Part shown: one piece after another, positions 8,818-25,586 of the stretch
Layout: each line of letters begins with the position of its first letter
Numbering within the stretch: the first letter of the stretch is position 1
Source of the DNA: a virus
IMG/VR virus record: IMGVR_UViG_3300033985_000287
Location: 1 to 31,663 of that record
Direction: 5' to 3' (one strand)
DNA length: 31,663 bases
The notes under the pieces: model-generated
What the model saw: the letters and a program-made list of their open reading frames with translations, nothing else
Database searches by the model: none
Told to the model about the DNA's origin: nothing
Position numbers and translations under genes: made by a program

Positions 8818-9297
8818 GTGGAGACTAAAGAATACGTTGAGTATTTACTTGAAAACTATAATGAGATTTTAAAGGATATTGAGCAGTTAAAGTTTGAACT
8901 TGAAACCTTTGAGGAATTAGTTCCAGAAGAAATGATAGATGTCATGAATTTCTCAACAGGGAATGAAGAAAGAGTAGCAGCTTATAGAGTATCAGATAAA
9001 ACTTGCAAAATAGCATTGATATATAATGAGGTAGCTAAAAGAATGAATAATGAAGCTAAGGAAGAAATAAGGAAAATGATAATAGCTTCTGAATATGAGA
9101 TTAAGAAACTTGATTACTGTATTGATAGGTTAGATGAAAAAGTTAAAGAAACAATAAAGAGTGTTTATATCAATAAATATTCATGGGCAGACGTGTGTAA
9201 AAAGTTGTATATAAGCGAAAATACTTTAAATAAGTATAGAAGAAAAGGTATAGAAGAAATAAAAGGTATGTTTCAGCTTGGAAGACTGGCAAATTAG
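8818..9297 (+). CDS. Sigma-region-4-like late transcription regulator (ArpU/RinA-type)
   Basis: This 159-aa protein is largely helical, with an N-terminal coiled-coil-like region (about 1-45). The C-terminal helix-turn-helix (about 115-150) reads INKYSWADVCKKLYISENTL followed by a basic recognition helix NKYRRKGIEE. This is the pattern of sigma-70 region 4-like phage regulators such as ArpU, RinA and DUF1492 proteins, which switch on packaging and morphogenesis genes. The start is GTG 8818, preceded by GAGGGGG; the ATG at 8816 is out of frame. Its position at the boundary between replication and packaging modules supports a late-activator or antiterminator role. The precise family and target promoter are not certain from sequence alone. 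Confidence 0.8.
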   Translation: METKEYVEYLLENYNEILKDIEQLKFELETFEELVPEEMIDVMNFSTGNEERVAAYRVSDKTCKIALIYNEVAKRMNNEAKEEIRKMIIASEYEIKKLDYCIDRLDEKVKETIKSVYINKYSWADVCKKLYISENTLNKYRRKGIEEIKGMFQLGRLAN

Positions 9298-9308: not shown

Positions 9309-9375
9309 GTTGTTTGCAAAATAAATTTGAAGTAATATATAGTTATATGTAGTTAATTTGAAAGGGGATGGGGTC

Positions 9376-10698
9376 TTGGGTTTATTTTATTGGCATTCAA
9401 AAGTTGAAAATGGAAATACACTAAAAGAGGAATTACTTGGTTTAGATAAAATTAGTATTGTAAGAATAGCATCTGCATATTTTTCAAAAGAGGGATTAGA
9501 AATTTTAAAAGAGCTTAGAGATAAGCATTTATTAAAAAAACAGAATATCCATTTATATTTATCGCCAGAATTTTCAATAGATAAGCCTTATGAGTTACTT
9601 GAGGAATTAAGAGAATTCTGCAATGTATATATTGTATTTAATATTAGATTTCACCCCAAAGTGTATTGGTTAAAATCAAGTAGCAAAAGCAAATTAATAT
9701 TTGGATCATCAAATTTTACTAGAGGTGGATTTACTGATAATATTGAATTTGATATGGTTAGTGAAATTAATAAAAATGATGAATTAAAATTGGATATGTT
9801 TTTTAAGTACTGTAATGATAATAGTGAATTAGTGAATGAGGAAATAATTAAATTTTATAAGGATAAAGCAGATGAATTTAATAAGTTAAAAGACACTAAT
9901 AGAAAAATTAACAAGGCTTTATATTCATACGAAAGAAGAAATGATGCATTTGAAGAAGACGATTATAGCTTAGATGAAATGTATTTTACTTACCAAGATT
10001 ACGAAACCTTATTTATGAGAAACCAAGCATTAAATGATGCTGCAATAAATGCTAGAAGAAAGGCAATTAAAGACAAAATATTAAAAATTCATAAGAAAGT
10101 ATATTCAACTTTAAATAAAGAGAATATTCATTGTCATTGGAGACCTGAAAATATAACATCTTTAATAAGGCCATGTGAATTTAATTTTGGAAGAGTAGGA
10201 TGGGTAGGAGTAAGGTATGGGAAACATAAAGACGAAATTGATATTTTAAATATAGGTTCAGAAAAAGATGAAGAACTAGGATTTCAAAAACATTCTTGCT
10301 TGCAGTTTTGTATTACATCAAGTGGATTTGAAATAAATTTGTTTCATGCAGTAAGAAGAGATGCTGTAGATAGGAATTACCTTCATGAGAATATTAATAG
10401 TCTTAAAAGTAAAATTGTAAAGGAGTTAGATAAACTTAGGGGAGAAGGATTAGAATGGATAATTCATGATAATGCACAAGATAAAGACTATATATTTAAA
10501 ATAGATAATGAAAAAAGCGAAGATTTTATTTCATTTTACAAAAAGTATGATGAGGAAGGAAGAGAATCTTATTTAGCATATTATTTAGAACCTGATAATG
10601 ATAATTTAAAAGACCTTAATAGTATTAGTAAAGTTGTGATAGAGAAAATAAAGATATTTTTACCTTTGTATAATTTATTAGCTTTTAGGATTAAATAA
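9376..10698 (+). CDS. Phospholipase D-fold nuclease-like protein, cargo gene
   Basis: This is a 440-aa protein. Residues 1-130 form one PLD/HKD half-domain with FHPKVYWLK (H93, K95) and then FGSSNFTRGG (G110, N113), the HxK...GSxNxTxxG signature of BfiI/NgoFVII-type restriction nucleases and helicase-linked PLD nucleases. With a single HKD motif it would need to dimerise. A charged helical region (about 140-260) and a C-terminal domain of about 180 residues, containing HCHWRPENI and HAVRRDAVDRNYL, are unassigned. The TTG at 9376 follows AAAGGGG by 8 bases and is preferred over TTG 9358. The gene is flanked by terminators on both sides and is more AT-rich than the replication genes, the profile of a horizontally acquired cargo gene. 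DNA cleavage in defence or superinfection exclusion is possible, but no partner gene is present. Confidence 0.8.
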   Translation: MGLFYWHSKVENGNTLKEELLGLDKISIVRIASAYFSKEGLEILKELRDKHLLKKQNIHLYLSPEFSIDKPYELLEELREFCNVYIVFNIRFHPKVYWLKSSSKSKLIFGSSNFTRGGFTDNIEFDMVSEINKNDELKLDMFFKYCNDNSELVNEEIIKFYKDKADEFNKLKDTNRKINKALYSYERRNDAFEEDDYSLDEMYFTYQDYETLFMRNQALNDAAINARRKAIKDKILKIHKKVYSTLNKENIHCHWRPENITSLIRPCEFNFGRVGWVGVRYGKHKDEIDILNIGSEKDEELGFQKHSCLQFCITSSGFEINLFHAVRRDAVDRNYLHENINSLKSKIVKELDKLRGEGLEWIIHDNAQDKDYIFKIDNEKSEDFISFYKKYDEEGRESYLAYYLEPDNDNLKDLNSISKVVIEKIKIFLPLYNLLAFRIK

Positions 10699-12978: not shown

Positions 12979-12983
12979 AATGC

Positions 12984-13031
12984 TTGATATATATGTGTTT
13001 TAGAGTGATATATAGTATAACAAAAAACACA
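12984..13031 (+). promoter_or_regulatory. Palindromic promoter element, copy 1
   Basis: TTGATA (12984-12989) stands 17 bp before GATATA, or 19 bp before an extended -10 TGATATATA (from 13006). It is overlain by a perfect 8-bp inverted repeat, TGTGTTTT (12994-13001) and AAAACACA (13024-13031), with a 22-nt spacer containing AGAGTGATATAT. The same layout recurs at 13412-13459. Because transcription would begin inside the spacer, the repeat is better read as a DNA operator than an RNA hairpin. Confidence 0.6.
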
Positions 13032-13046
13032 CTTGGAGGTAAGAAA

Positions 13047-13358
13047 ATGAAAGCATTATTTGGAAGAAAGGTGTTAAATTTAAAGGAACTTAAGGAGCTT
13101 ACAAAAGAAGCTAAGAAGGATGGAGCAAAAGGAACAGCCTACGAAGTTACAAAAGAAATTGAGCTAAGCGATGAGGAATTTAAAGAATTTGCAAAAGACT
13201 TCTGCAAAGACCAGCATTGGATAAACAAAGAAGATGGTGGTTGCAACGAAAAAGGAGAACTAAGATGTATAAGGGTTAAGAATACAAAAACAAATAAAAG
13301 CATTTTAGTAGATTCAGAAGGCTACACCTACCCAAGGTACACAGCCATTGAAAATTAG
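13047..13358 (+). CDS. Small phage/ICE-type protein of unknown function
   Basis: This 103-aa protein has a basic N-terminus (MKALFGRKVLNLKELKELTK), a central acidic helix ELSDEEFKEFAKDFC (about 41-55), and a C-terminal half that looks like small beta strands ending VDSEGYTYPRYTAIEN. It resembles uncharacterised proteins of clostridial phages and conjugative elements, possibly the DUF6329 group. I am not certain of the family number. The ATG at 13047 lies 7 bases after GGAGG. Upstream in-frame codons from 12984 are only translation of the palindromic promoter and are rejected. A terminator follows at once, so it is a single-gene transcription unit under promoter copy 1. Confidence 0.75.
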   Translation: MKALFGRKVLNLKELKELTKEAKKDGAKGTAYEVTKEIELSDEEFKEFAKDFCKDQHWINKEDGGCNEKGELRCIRVKNTKTNKSILVDSEGYTYPRYTAIEN

Positions 13359-13365
13359 GCAGAAG

Positions 13366-13388
13366 CAGGCTTTAGGGCCTGTTTTTTT
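13366..13388 (+). terminator. Intrinsic terminator of the small gene
   Basis: CAGGCT/GGCCTG arms (13366-13371 and 13376-13381, one G-U pair) with a 4-nt loop are followed by seven T. It closes the single-gene unit before promoter copy 2. Confidence 0.75.
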
Positions 13389-13411
13389 CTTAAAATATTT
13401 ATACAAAGTAC

Positions 13412-13459
13412 TTGATATTACCTGTGTTTAGAGTGATATATGTAATTACCAAAACACAG
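13412..13459 (+). promoter_or_regulatory. Palindromic promoter element, copy 2
   Basis: TTGATA (13412-13417) has the same spacing as copy 1 to GATATA and to the extended -10 TGATATATG (from 13434). The inverted repeat is CTGTGTTT (13422-13429) and AAACACAG (13452-13459), again with exactly 22 nt between arms. The arm boundary is shifted by one base relative to copy 1, yet both remain perfect palindromes. The right arm abuts the ribosome binding site GGGAGG (13459-13464), so a bound protein could also block translation. Confidence 0.6.
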
Positions 13460-13471
13460 GGAGGAATGAAG

Positions 13472-14224
13472 ATGGATAGAAAAGAAATAGTTAAAACTTT
13501 AAGTGAAGCCTTAGGTTCTCAAGCAAAGTATCTTGGAGCACCAAGCTTTTCCTATGAAATTAAAACGGAAAAAGAAATATACACCATAGATAGGCAGGGA
13601 AGTATTACAACTTCACAAGGTAGGTTTGTTAAACTTAATGAAATCTTAAAGGGAGATCACCCTAAAGAAAAAATAGAGGCTACAGCTATTGATAGCTTTA
13701 ATTTAGAAATTCCATTAGGAGAACATACGGGAAGAACATTAATGAATATTTTAAATATGCTTTACAGTAAACAGCAGCTAATTTTTAAAGCTTTCGAATT
13801 AAAAGAAACGTTTATTGAAGAAGCCTTTATAAAGAATTTGAATTTAAAGAGAACAGAAACTTTAGAAGAATTTCAAAATGCTATTACTGAAGTTGGAATT
13901 GATGGTTGCAAAGGCATAACCTTTGATTTTGAAAAAGGAACTTTTACCTTAAAGCTATTAGGTGAAAACTTAAGCCATGAGAAAATATCTGTATTTATAG
14001 AACTTGCATCTTTAATAAATGTGAACGCACAAAAATTAAAGCACACCTCTTTTAAGCAGGCTCAGGAGGATAACCCTAAATATGCATTCAGAACTTGGCT
14101 CATTCGCCTTGGCATGAATGGAAGTAAGTATAAGGATATAAGGAAAACACTTCTTTCAAATCTTGAAGGCAGTTGTGCTTTTAGAAAATTACAACAGGAA
14201 GGAAGTGCTCAAATAAATGGATAA
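13472..14224 (+). CDS. Conserved protein often labelled 'virulence-related', function unknown
   Basis: This 250-aa protein begins MDRKEIVKTLSEALGSQAKY and continues through a strand-rich segment containing YTIDRQGSITTSQG. An acidic/helical middle follows, then a C-terminal region with FRTWLIRLGMNGSKYKDIRK (about 211-230), which resembles a small DNA-binding helical unit. I recognise it as a family common in Firmicute phages and conjugative elements that databases often call virulence-related, without experimental support known to me. The ATG at 13472 lies 7 bases after GGGAGG; ATG 13466 is only one base from it. Its 3' end overlaps the next gene by 8 bases, implying coupling. It is controlled by promoter copy 2. 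Confidence 0.75.
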   Translation: MDRKEIVKTLSEALGSQAKYLGAPSFSYEIKTEKEIYTIDRQGSITTSQGRFVKLNEILKGDHPKEKIEATAIDSFNLEIPLGEHTGRTLMNILNMLYSKQQLIFKAFELKETFIEEAFIKNLNLKRTETLEEFQNAITEVGIDGCKGITFDFEKGTFTLKLLGENLSHEKISVFIELASLINVNAQKLKHTSFKQAQEDNPKYAFRTWLIRLGMNGSKYKDIRKTLLSNLEGSCAFRKLQQEGSAQING

Positions 14225-14436: not shown

Positions 14437-14464
14437 AAGGGTCTACGATTGTAGGCTCTTTTTT
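14437..14464 (+). terminator. Intrinsic terminator before the terminase genes
   Basis: A 10-bp stem (AAGGGTCTAC at 14437-14446 with GTAGGCTCTT at 14451-14460, two G-U pairs) and a GATT loop are followed by six T. It separates the accessory cassette from the head operon. Confidence 0.75.
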
Positions 14465-20035: not shown

Positions 20036-21244
20036 ATGTTCAATGGCTCAATTATAACAAAATCATCAGCTATAATCAAATTTTTTAGAGAATCAAGATT
20101 TACTCTTTATTTTACTAAACCACAGCTTCATATCATAGTACTAATCATGAGTGCAATGATAAAAAAAGGGTTTGCAGGTAAAGTTACTGATGCATCTGAA
20201 CTTATGCCTTTCAGACATAGGACTAATATCGGAAAATTTTTATCCCAAAGCCCTTGGAATGAGGATTATGTTGAAAGAGCACTCCGTAGTCTAGTTATCA
20301 AGAAGATTTGGGATATTTCTAGAACAACTGGAAAGCCAATTTATGTTGCCATAGATGATACTATTTCAGAAAGAACTGTGCCCTCGTCAAAGGCACTAAA
20401 ACCTATTGAAAAATGCAGCTTTCACAAATCTCATTTAAAAGGTAAAACTGTTTATGGACATCAATTAGTAACTGTTATGCTTATTTGTGATGACGTTGTT
20501 ATGCCTTACGCAATTTCTATTTATGATAAAAAGATTAAAAGTAAAATTGAAATGGCTATTGAGCTTATAAATTCTCTACCTTCTCCAATAAATGAGGGTT
20601 ATGTTTTGTGCGATAGTTGGTATAGTTGTAAAAAGATCTTTAAGGCTACTGAAAACGCTGGCTTTAAATATGTAGGTGGTTTACGTACTAATAGAGTAAT
20701 TTATCCACCAACATATAAAAGACTCGGCATTAAGCTTAATCATTTTGGAAAAACACTAACTAAAGAGGATGTCGACCTAGTCAAAGTTGGCAACTCAGAA
20801 TATTATGTTTATTCTTATAAAGGAAGACTTAGCGATCTAAAAGAAGCTTTAATAGTTCTTAGCTGGCCTAAGGAAGCACTTTTCAAAGAAGGATGTTTGA
20901 GAGCTTTTATAAGCCCTACTGATTCAAATATATCTATACTAGAATTATTGAATCATTACAGACATCGATGGCCTATAGAAACATTTTTTAGAGAGTCTAA
21001 GAAAAAGCTAGGTTTAGACGACTATCAAATTCGCAGTGAAAAAAGCATAAAAAGATACTTGCTTATTATGATGACTACTTATGTTTATTGTGGTTTAGAA
21101 GTATCTGAAAATACGTTAAAATTTAGTGATGGTTTAAAAACTGCAAGAGCTCAATTAGAAGTTGAAAAAATAACCTTCATTTATAAAAAAACTCAAGCAG
21201 GAGAGCCTCTTGATGCCATTTTGGAACTTTTTAATGCAGCTTAG
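20036..21244 (+). CDS. IS4/IS701-type DDE transposase
   Basis: This 402-aa transposase has an RNase H-fold DDE triad. The first Asp is in VAIDDT (D107/D108), the second in LCDSWYS (D193), and the Glu is in YRHRWPIETFFRESKKKLG (E315), the Y-(2)-R-(3)-E-(6)-K signature of the IS4 superfamily. A helical N-terminal DNA-binding region (about 1-95) precedes it. It would cut at the 13-bp ends and insert the element elsewhere. The frame is complete with no frameshift. The ATG lies 8 bases after a GGAG inside the RBS-masking repeat. The flanking phage genes are on the same strand, so phage late transcription reads into it. Confidence 0.93.
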   Translation: MFNGSIITKSSAIIKFFRESRFTLYFTKPQLHIIVLIMSAMIKKGFAGKVTDASELMPFRHRTNIGKFLSQSPWNEDYVERALRSLVIKKIWDISRTTGKPIYVAIDDTISERTVPSSKALKPIEKCSFHKSHLKGKTVYGHQLVTVMLICDDVVMPYAISIYDKKIKSKIEMAIELINSLPSPINEGYVLCDSWYSCKKIFKATENAGFKYVGGLRTNRVIYPPTYKRLGIKLNHFGKTLTKEDVDLVKVGNSEYYVYSYKGRLSDLKEALIVLSWPKEALFKEGCLRAFISPTDSNISILELLNHYRHRWPIETFFRESKKKLGLDDYQIRSEKSIKRYLLIMMTTYVYCGLEVSENTLKFSDGLKTARAQLEVEKITFIYKKTQAGEPLDAILELFNAA

Positions 21245-21338
21245 GTTATCTCTTTGATTATTGTGCTGGAAATATATGTTTGATATTTCGCTCATTTATA
21301 GTCTTATTATATTCAAATTGTGAGTGAGGGGATATTAT

Positions 21339-21725
21339 TTGAGAAGAGATAAATTATTAATTCTAACAAGAGTCCTTTATATATTATTTCTTATTGGAAC
21401 TATAATTTCATTGGTAATTGTTTATAAAGATATAAAGAATAATATTGCAATTAAATTTGTAATTGGATATGTAATTCTGACTTTCTTTTTACTTTTATAT
21501 ATCCCTATAGTAACAATTTTGAATTTAAGAAAATCAAAACTGATTGATATAAAAACAAGAATGATTAAGTTTATTTCTTTATTTATTATATTTACTGCTT
21601 TAAATTATGGTATTGACTTTATTTTAAGACATTCTAATATAAATATATTCAGAGAGATACCAACTGCTTTAGGATTAGCATTTGGGCTTTCATTTATTGA
21701 TGTAATACTTTTTAAGAAGAAATAG
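21339..21725 (+). CDS. Four-helix membrane protein, cargo gene
   Basis: This 128-aa hydrophobic protein has four predicted membrane segments (about residues 7-27, 36-58, 77-92 and 103-122) separated by short charged loops, with basic termini (MRRDK and LFKKK). It has no signal peptide and no catalytic motif that I recognise. The TTG at 21339 follows GAGGGG (21326-21331) by about 7 bases; GTG 21324 lies within that site. It does not resemble a holin or a head protein. Its position between the capsid gene and a head structural gene is atypical for a core phage function, so it looks like a lysogenic-conversion (moron) gene. The insertion sequence upstream probably separates it from its promoter. 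Confidence 0.7.
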   Translation: MRRDKLLILTRVLYILFLIGTIISLVIVYKDIKNNIAIKFVIGYVILTFFLLLYIPIVTILNLRKSKLIDIKTRMIKFISLFIIFTALNYGIDFILRHSNINIFREIPTALGLAFGLSFIDVILFKKK

Positions 21726-24678: not shown

Positions 24679-24698
24679 AAGATTAGGAGGTGTTATGT

Positions 24699-25586
24699 AT
24701 GCAAGTGAATGAAATTTGCAAACAAACAGGCTTAACGAAAAAAGCAATTGAATATTATCAGTTAAAGGGGCTAGTAGCACCAAAAATAAGCCAAAATGGA
24801 TATAGAGAATTTTCAGATTTGGATTTAGATTGCTTGAAAGAAATTGCATTACTTAGAAAACTGGATTTAAGCACTGATGAGATTAAGCAAGTAATTTGTA
24901 GTAATGATAAAAAACTTACTCTTGCTACAATTAAACAAACAAAAGAGGTTCAAGTTAGAGCAAAATTATATAGAATTGATTTAATAGAACAATTGATTGA
25001 TGGCGTGGATATAGCTAAAATTCAGGATGAAATAAATATATTGGAACAACAATCAACTATTAAAGAAAAGCTATTAATGGCTTTTCCAGGATACTATGGG
25101 AGATATTTAAGCATACATTTTGGTCAATTTCTAAATGAACCAATTAAAACTAGTGAGCAGAAACTACTATTTAATAAAATGGTTAGCTTTCTTGATGATA
25201 TGGAATCAATTGAGATTCCCAAAGAACTCCAATCATTTTTAGATGAGGCAGATCAATACATGTCAGATGTAGAAATTGAAGAAATGAGTGTTAATATACA
25301 GAGCGCCTATGATAATTTTGATGAGTACTGGGAAAATAATAAAAATAATATAATTCAATACTTAGAATTTAAGAAAGCAGATGATTATCAAAACTCAGCA
25401 TTGGCACAACTTATGGATTTGTTTCGCAACTTTGGCGAAACTAGTGGTTATTATGATATTTTCATTCCTACTATGAAAAAACTAAGTCCTGCATATGATT
25501 TATATTGCAAGAAGATGCTTGAAGCAAATGAAAAGTTAACACAAAAAATGCCTGACGTAGAAAATTGGTATAAATCAATAAAATAG
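24699..25586 (+). CDS. MerR-family transcriptional regulator, cargo gene
   Basis: This 295-aa regulator has an N-terminal winged helix-turn-helix (residues about 2-70: VNEICKQTGLTKKAIEYYQL, then GYREFSDLDLDCLKEIALLR), a dimerisation helix (about 75-130), and a long C-terminal region rich in acidic and aromatic residues. The latter includes FPGYYGRYLSIHFGQFL and could bind a ligand. It has no metal-binding cysteine set, so a metal sensor is unlikely; an effector-binding or drug-sensing type is more plausible. AGGAGG lies 8 bases before the ATG at 24699. It stands alone between the major tail gene and the tail chaperones, with its own promoter, so it is a cargo gene that could alter host expression. 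Target genes other than itself are not visible. Confidence 0.9.
   Translation: MQVNEICKQTGLTKKAIEYYQLKGLVAPKISQNGYREFSDLDLDCLKEIALLRKLDLSTDEIKQVICSNDKKLTLATIKQTKEVQVRAKLYRIDLIEQLIDGVDIAKIQDEINILEQQSTIKEKLLMAFPGYYGRYLSIHFGQFLNEPIKTSEQKLLFNKMVSFLDDMESIEIPKELQSFLDEADQYMSDVEIEEMSVNIQSAYDNFDEYWENNKNNIIQYLEFKKADDYQNSALAQLMDLFRNFGETSGYYDIFIPTMKKLSPAYDLYCKKMLEANEKLTQKMPDVENWYKSIK

Follow-up and report, generated by a model that had tools for sequence, protein, structure and literature searches.

Two genes in the viral record IMGVR_UViG_3300033985_000287 (positions 1 to 31,663; the whole stretch of 31,663 nucleotides (nt) is called the window hereafter) are each preceded by a promoter-like element, which recurs in hundreds of phage sequences, almost all of them from phages of Gram-positive gut and environmental bacteria. 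Judged by its conservation among these sequences, the conserved object is the promoter core and not the palindrome that encloses it in the window, and a small phage-encoded sigma-like protein probably assists in reading the promoter. We favour, with a probability of about 0.55, the reading that these sites form one phage promoter class, transcribed by host RNA polymerase with the aid of a DUF1492 protein, and that a hairpin around the promoter lowers the translation of read-through RNA.

The promoter family, its spacing and its carriers

An earlier note, made from the sequence of the window alone, had described both elements as TTGATA followed by AGAGTGATATAT and flanked by perfect inverted arms 22 nt apart, and direct reading of the sequence agrees in every respect. 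The TTGATA hexamers lie at 12984-12989 and 13412-13417, and AGAGTGATATAT at 13002-13013 and 13430-13441; in both copies 17 nt separate TTGATA from GATATA (Table 1). The window holds two copies of the 15-mer TTTAGAGTGATATAT and no more, all other matches having 3 mismatches, i.e. the level expected by chance.

The exact 15-mer was found in at least 120 stretches of IMG/VR, and in 116 of these 120 the -35 (CTTG[C/A]TAT or close to it) was positioned exactly 8 nt upstream; here and below, scans of collections give lower bounds on abundance, and the sets of sites have common ancestry. The resulting consensus reads CTTG[C/A]TAT, exactly 8 nt, TT[T/C]AGAGTGATATAT and then GTAnnACC(A/G)AAA, where the long conserved core TT[T/C]AGAGTGAT(A/T/G)(T/A)AT replaces the TATAAT box, and ACC(A/G)AAA are predicted to be the first transcribed bases. 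A search that held the -35 and tail constant and allowed any bases between them gave back TT[T/C]AGAG (AGAG in 91-100%), and with the core fixed CTTG was recovered in 94-98% and TAT in 87-89%. One branch has CTTGACT or CTGGATA as its -35. In Agathobacter phage NatCom_13861 a promoter sub-branch, CTGGATAT-N8-TT[TC]AGAGCGAATATGTACCTACCGAAAGG, is present three times, at 20856, 22677 and 23105.

Patterns with the spacer one base off served as controls of spacing. The N15 pattern matched at least 120 stretches vs only 1 for N14; among 50 phage records the N9 pattern was present in 49 (approximately 110 sites), the pattern one base longer (N10) in none, and the reversed pattern gave 0 matches. In a set of TerL relatives, picked for their TerL regardless of the motif, a sense site with up to 4 mismatches was present in 36 of 51 cases and an antisense site in none, and several of the remaining ones have diverged sites such as CTTGACTTTACACCCGTTTAGAGTGATTTATGTAGTACC; the core was present in 21 of 25 whole contigs of such relatives, on a single strand per phage, the reversed control again giving 0. 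In contigs of bacterial genomes 86 of 117 matches carry the -35; the 31 without it, among them nearly all those outside Firmicutes and Gardnerella, are matches expected by chance. Each phage has 1-5 promoter sites on the coding strand, and the distance between the -35 and the translation start varies little (median 62 nt). The earlier note was right in calling the element promoter-like; its condition for refutation, that no other genomes show the element with conserved spacing, is contradicted for the promoter spacing and not for the arm spacing.

The carriers are Ca. Heliusvirales and relatives, in Clostridia, Bacilli, Negativicutes, Erysipelotrichia and Gardnerella; annotated among them are Heliusvirales phage PV036459, Gardnerella phage vB_Gva_AB1 and Streptococcus phages Javan422, 630, 191 and 105. 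Neighbouring genes code for TerL (146 of 269 loci) and ParB-methyltransferase (141), also for portal, TerS, capsid and serine recombinases, and most sites precede either serine recombinases or the short gene units that lie between the methyltransferase gene and those of the terminase. A shared, unnamed family had been supposed for clostridial phages and conjugative elements: phages of clostridia and their relatives do carry it, whereas conjugative elements are not supported as carriers, the neighbours being phage genes. No description of the class was found: Rfam gave 0 matches above the gathering cut-off in the window and 13 motif loci, and nothing relevant at a permissive threshold, and a literature search for the 15-mer and AGAGTGATATA, outside which subscription papers and preprints lay, returned no relevant paper.

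The element also affects gene calling. The longest frames begin at TTG 12984 and TTG 13412, run through the element and translate as ...FRVIY..ITK..., FRVIY being the plain translation of TTTAGAGTGATATAT; starts preceded by a Shine-Dalgarno sequence are ATG 13047 (DUF6329 gene) and ATG 13472. The longer frames are artefacts, giving the false N-terminal extensions foreseen earlier, with 13047 and 13472 as likely starts. The FRVIY frame is open for at least 45 codons at 75 of the 274 sites retrieved, so the risk of mis-annotation is genuine, though not at every site.

A candidate reader and its competitors

The most likely reader would be host RNA polymerase together with a late regulator of the DUF1492/phrog_36 type, whose gene lies upstream of both window promoters, as Ltr-type late promoters require; DUF1492 is the Ltrb late-regulator family (PMC5601072). 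The protein encoded in the window matched phrog_36 at E 3e-20 and DUF1492 at E 8e-5 (above cut-off). Its AlphaFold model (predicted local distance difference test, pLDDT, 86) combines a long, helical N-terminal region with a C-terminal part which superposes on solved sigma region 4 domains with template modelling (TM) scores by target of 0.7-0.87 and root-mean-square deviations of 1-2 A. A DUF1492 relative was recognised in 36 of 50 motif phages. The -35 forms TTGACT or TGGATA occur at 9 of 15 loci with a diverged regulator vs 2 of 71 with a classic one, the classic-regulator loci having TTG[C/A]TAT (69 of 71 without the alternative forms), and the Heliusvirales records L417 and L418 (the latter being phage NatCom_13861) also combine an alternative -35 with a diverged regulator; these facts would fit a sigma-4-like partner contacting the -35, but phage ancestry confounds the association of -35 type with regulator class, and common descent could give the same pattern.

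Further points weigh against the regulator as reader. The structural matches have poor Foldseek E-values (0.1 or worse), the domain being small. In 14 of the 50 motif phages no DUF1492 protein could be recognised, and some of these 14 have only a small protein of similar appearance at the corresponding position. More distant DUF1492 proteins are encoded by phages that lack the motif, namely Streptococcus phages Sfi21 and 7201 and Fusobacterium phage phiHugo. Unlike known Ltr targets, neither window copy has a repeat family upstream of its -35.

A separate observation concerns one close relative of the window (record L330): its TerL is identical to that of the window and it has both promoter copies, yet it encodes a classic DUF1492 protein where the window's is diverged, i.e. 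the regulator has been swapped between close relatives.

Two other readers have to be weighed. The copies might be ordinary host sigma-A promoters that drive phage cargo genes (morons) and need no phage factor for activity in the lysogen. The first unit, consisting of promoter, gene and terminator, has a typical moron layout, the -35 forms TTGATA/TTGCTA and TTGACT are close to TTGACA and lie 17 nt from GATATA, and sigma-A is the only factor common to all hosts of the element. We nevertheless consider this rather unlikely, since a sigma-70 scan (TTGACA, 16-18 nt, TATAAT) reported neither copy, the -10 box is poor (its hexamer has G first and A last), the upstream AGAGTGAT, for which sigma-A has no need, is nearly invariant, and cargo promoters do not usually stay the same between phages whose hosts belong to different bacterial classes. 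It also seems unlikely to us that another phage factor, for example a different sigma-like protein, reads the promoter while DUF1492 controls something else: co-occurrence with the motif was shown for no other single sigma-like family and the -35 type tracks the DUF1492 class, even if recognition of the long -10 core would be easier to account for with a full or split sigma factor than with a sigma-4-only protein, and even if many motif phages do encode further sigma-region-4-like proteins (e.g. ORF3 and ORF45 of Gardnerella phage AB1).

On the favoured reading, DUF1492-aided host polymerase would turn on the short units beside the terminase genes and serine recombinases once replication has begun, and recognition of the invariant AGAGTGAT would fall either to an altered state of the host polymerase or to a second factor.

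Inverted arms and a probable hairpin

Arms of at least 6 nt were detected at 35 of 169 non-redundant sites vs 13.9 with permuted partners, and 9-nt arms at 7 vs 0.6. Their sequences differ between sites (CCTGTGTTT, CTCCGTTT, CCTCCATTC, TGTGCTTT), the gaps range within 16-39 nt, most often 21-23, and the partner position is spread over more than 10 nt of leader. The perfect arms of the window, 9 nt long in copy 2, have a gap of 22 nt in both copies, as the earlier note had it; as a general rule, an invariant 22-nt spacer was rejected. Leaders folded with their own left arm reached -12.4 kcal/mol vs -10.9 with a shuffled arm, i.e. were 1.5 kcal/mol more stable (p 2e-9); own arms were also more stable than reversed or permuted ones, and flanking control 8-mers gave no such gain. 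Because arm sequence and spacing vary while complementarity holds, the arms are selected for pairing and not as a fixed operator. Of the selection on symmetry claimed earlier, the maintained complementarity remains, whereas the palindrome is not the conserved object, arms being absent or weak at most sites.

That the arms form an operator for a dimeric repressor or activator, as the earlier note had argued against an RNA hairpin, is very improbable: it would suit the perfect arms with equal gaps in the window and the somewhat higher concentration of arm matching at gaps of 21-23 nt, but recognition by a dimeric DNA-binding protein requires sequence conservation and constant spacing, and arm sequence, gap and position in the leader vary as above, with most sites having no arms.

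A hairpin is the better reading than a DNA operator, with pairing of RNA and of DNA strands being indistinguishable by this test: the antisense strand gives the same pairing signal, and the comparison of strands shows no RNA/DNA difference. Transcription probably begins between the arms, as proposed before, so that the left arm is predicted to lie outside the RNA made there; with the left arm 5' of the -10, an RNA hairpin is possible only in transcripts from further upstream. Copy 2 has this layout, with the promoter within the hairpin and the left arm 5' of the predicted start, and its hairpin would reach -15.8 kcal/mol in RNA that includes the left arm. At many sites the right arm stops at or inside the Shine-Dalgarno sequence, which is unpaired at 0.43 with the left arm, 0.46 with a shuffled arm and 0.64 in the short RNA.

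As with the reader, part of the evidence speaks against a role of the hairpin in translation. Besides the strand comparison, the predicted fold of read-through RNA at window copy 1 does not use its arms, and masking of the Shine-Dalgarno sequence beyond that by shuffled arms is marginal (p 0.05). A Shine-Dalgarno-masking hairpin was rejected as a universal feature and is a tendency only.

In the favoured model the variable hairpin, with the core promoter in its loop and the right arm abutting or covering the Shine-Dalgarno sequence, probably reduces translation of RNA read through from upstream, and such a lock would confine the use of the genes to the firing of their own promoter. More tentatively, and rather doubtfully as yet, the whole may represent a group-wide switch, in which a sigma-4-only phage regulator re-targets host polymerase to AGAGTGAT from Clostridia to Actinobacteria and a built-in hairpin silences read-through copies.

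Gene context and comparison with known systems

The gene family found behind copy 2, annotated as 'virulence-related protein', is the commonest one behind the promoter (136 of 312). An Ltr-type late promoter drives a single long transcript for packaging, structure and lysis. Promoter 2 is upstream of terS and terL on the same strand, with a terminator-like hairpin intervening. Its transcripts may end there, and the structural genes may then need read-through or another promoter. The terminator-like hairpin between gene 1 and promoter 2 has a similar counterpart at the equivalent position in L330.

Table 1. Features around the two promoter copies and the candidate regulator gene of the window
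Feature	Position	Strand	Details
Candidate reader: DUF1492 / phrog_36 / RinA-like late transcriptional regulator	8818..9297	+	sigma-region-4-like C-terminal domain
Promoter copy 1	12983..13013	+	-35 cTTGATAT 12983-12990, 8 nt, TTTAGAGTGATATAT 12999-13013
Left arm, copy 1, TGTGTTTT	12994..13001	+	5' of -10
Right arm, copy 1, AAAACACA	13024..13031	+	predicted leader, upstream of Shine-Dalgarno
Gene behind copy 1: DUF6329 / phrog_21303 protein	13047..13358	+	function unknown
Terminator-like hairpin CAGGC-TTTAGG-GCCTG + T run	13366..13388	+	between gene 1 and promoter 2; by inspection, not listed by the scan
Promoter copy 2	13411..13441	+	-35 cTTGATAT 13411-13418, 8 nt, TTTAGAGTGATATAT 13427-13441
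Left arm, copy 2, CCTGTGTTT	13421..13429	+	
Right arm, copy 2, AAACACAGG	13452..13460	+	overlaps Shine-Dalgarno start
Gene behind copy 2: 'virulence-related protein' family	13472..14224	+	part of phrog_2443 (labelled amidoligase enzyme)
Terminator-like hairpin ahead of terminase small subunit gene	14437..14460	+	by scan

Other features of the window are recorded here in their own right. A gene for an NgoFVII-like PLD restriction endonuclease (9358-10698), possibly a phage-borne defence, is located immediately 3' of the regulator gene. One transposase-like and one small membrane-protein gene (20036-21725) separate the major capsid gene from the structural genes that follow it and break the usual late gene order, and a MerR-family regulator gene (24690-25586; Pfam MerR_1) is set among tail genes; in Streptococcus phage Javan105 a MerR regulator is encoded right behind TerL.

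The signature may mark the regulon of a common temperate gut phage group, most of whose genes have no known function. It flags true start codons and corrects false N-terminal extensions, predicts which genes share their regulation with recombinases and the terminase region and points to a candidate regulator. Furthermore, a promoter keeping its sequence from Clostridia to Gardnerella could prove useful as a portable part for anaerobes.

Both phage-specific promoter classes and regulators of the Ltr type were known before. T4 late and SPO1 middle promoters are phage-specific classes, in which one consensus is repeated through the genome and is read by host polymerase with a phage factor. The present class likewise has a phage-specific consensus repeated through the genome; its sequence is unrelated (that of T4 late promoters is TATAAATA, read by gp55), and it spans a whole phage group and several bacterial classes. 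The Ltr (RinA, ArpU, Ltrb/DUF1492) promoters of Gram-positive phages are similar in that responsive genes start just downstream, beside terminase genes. Known Ltr targets are direct repeats upstream of the -35, combined with a plain -10 box (PMC13123087), whereas here the constraint lies within the core promoter and several copies are present per phage, one of them serving recombinase genes. The predicted hairpin arrangement, with its left arm upstream of the -10, would match that of T4 gene e. In T4 late genes located within early regions (gene e, soc, 49), the late promoter is placed in the 5' strand of a hairpin and the ribosome binding site is hidden only in the longer early transcripts, so that for gene e these are silenced and late transcripts are not (PMC3014915). 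The hairpin described here differs in being variable and absent from many sites, with Shine-Dalgarno masking only marginally supported. From the known kinds the present class differs in that its constraint falls on the core promoter and not on repeats upstream, that it recurs at units of both terminase and recombinase, that it extends over several host classes, and that its promoter would lie within a hairpin.
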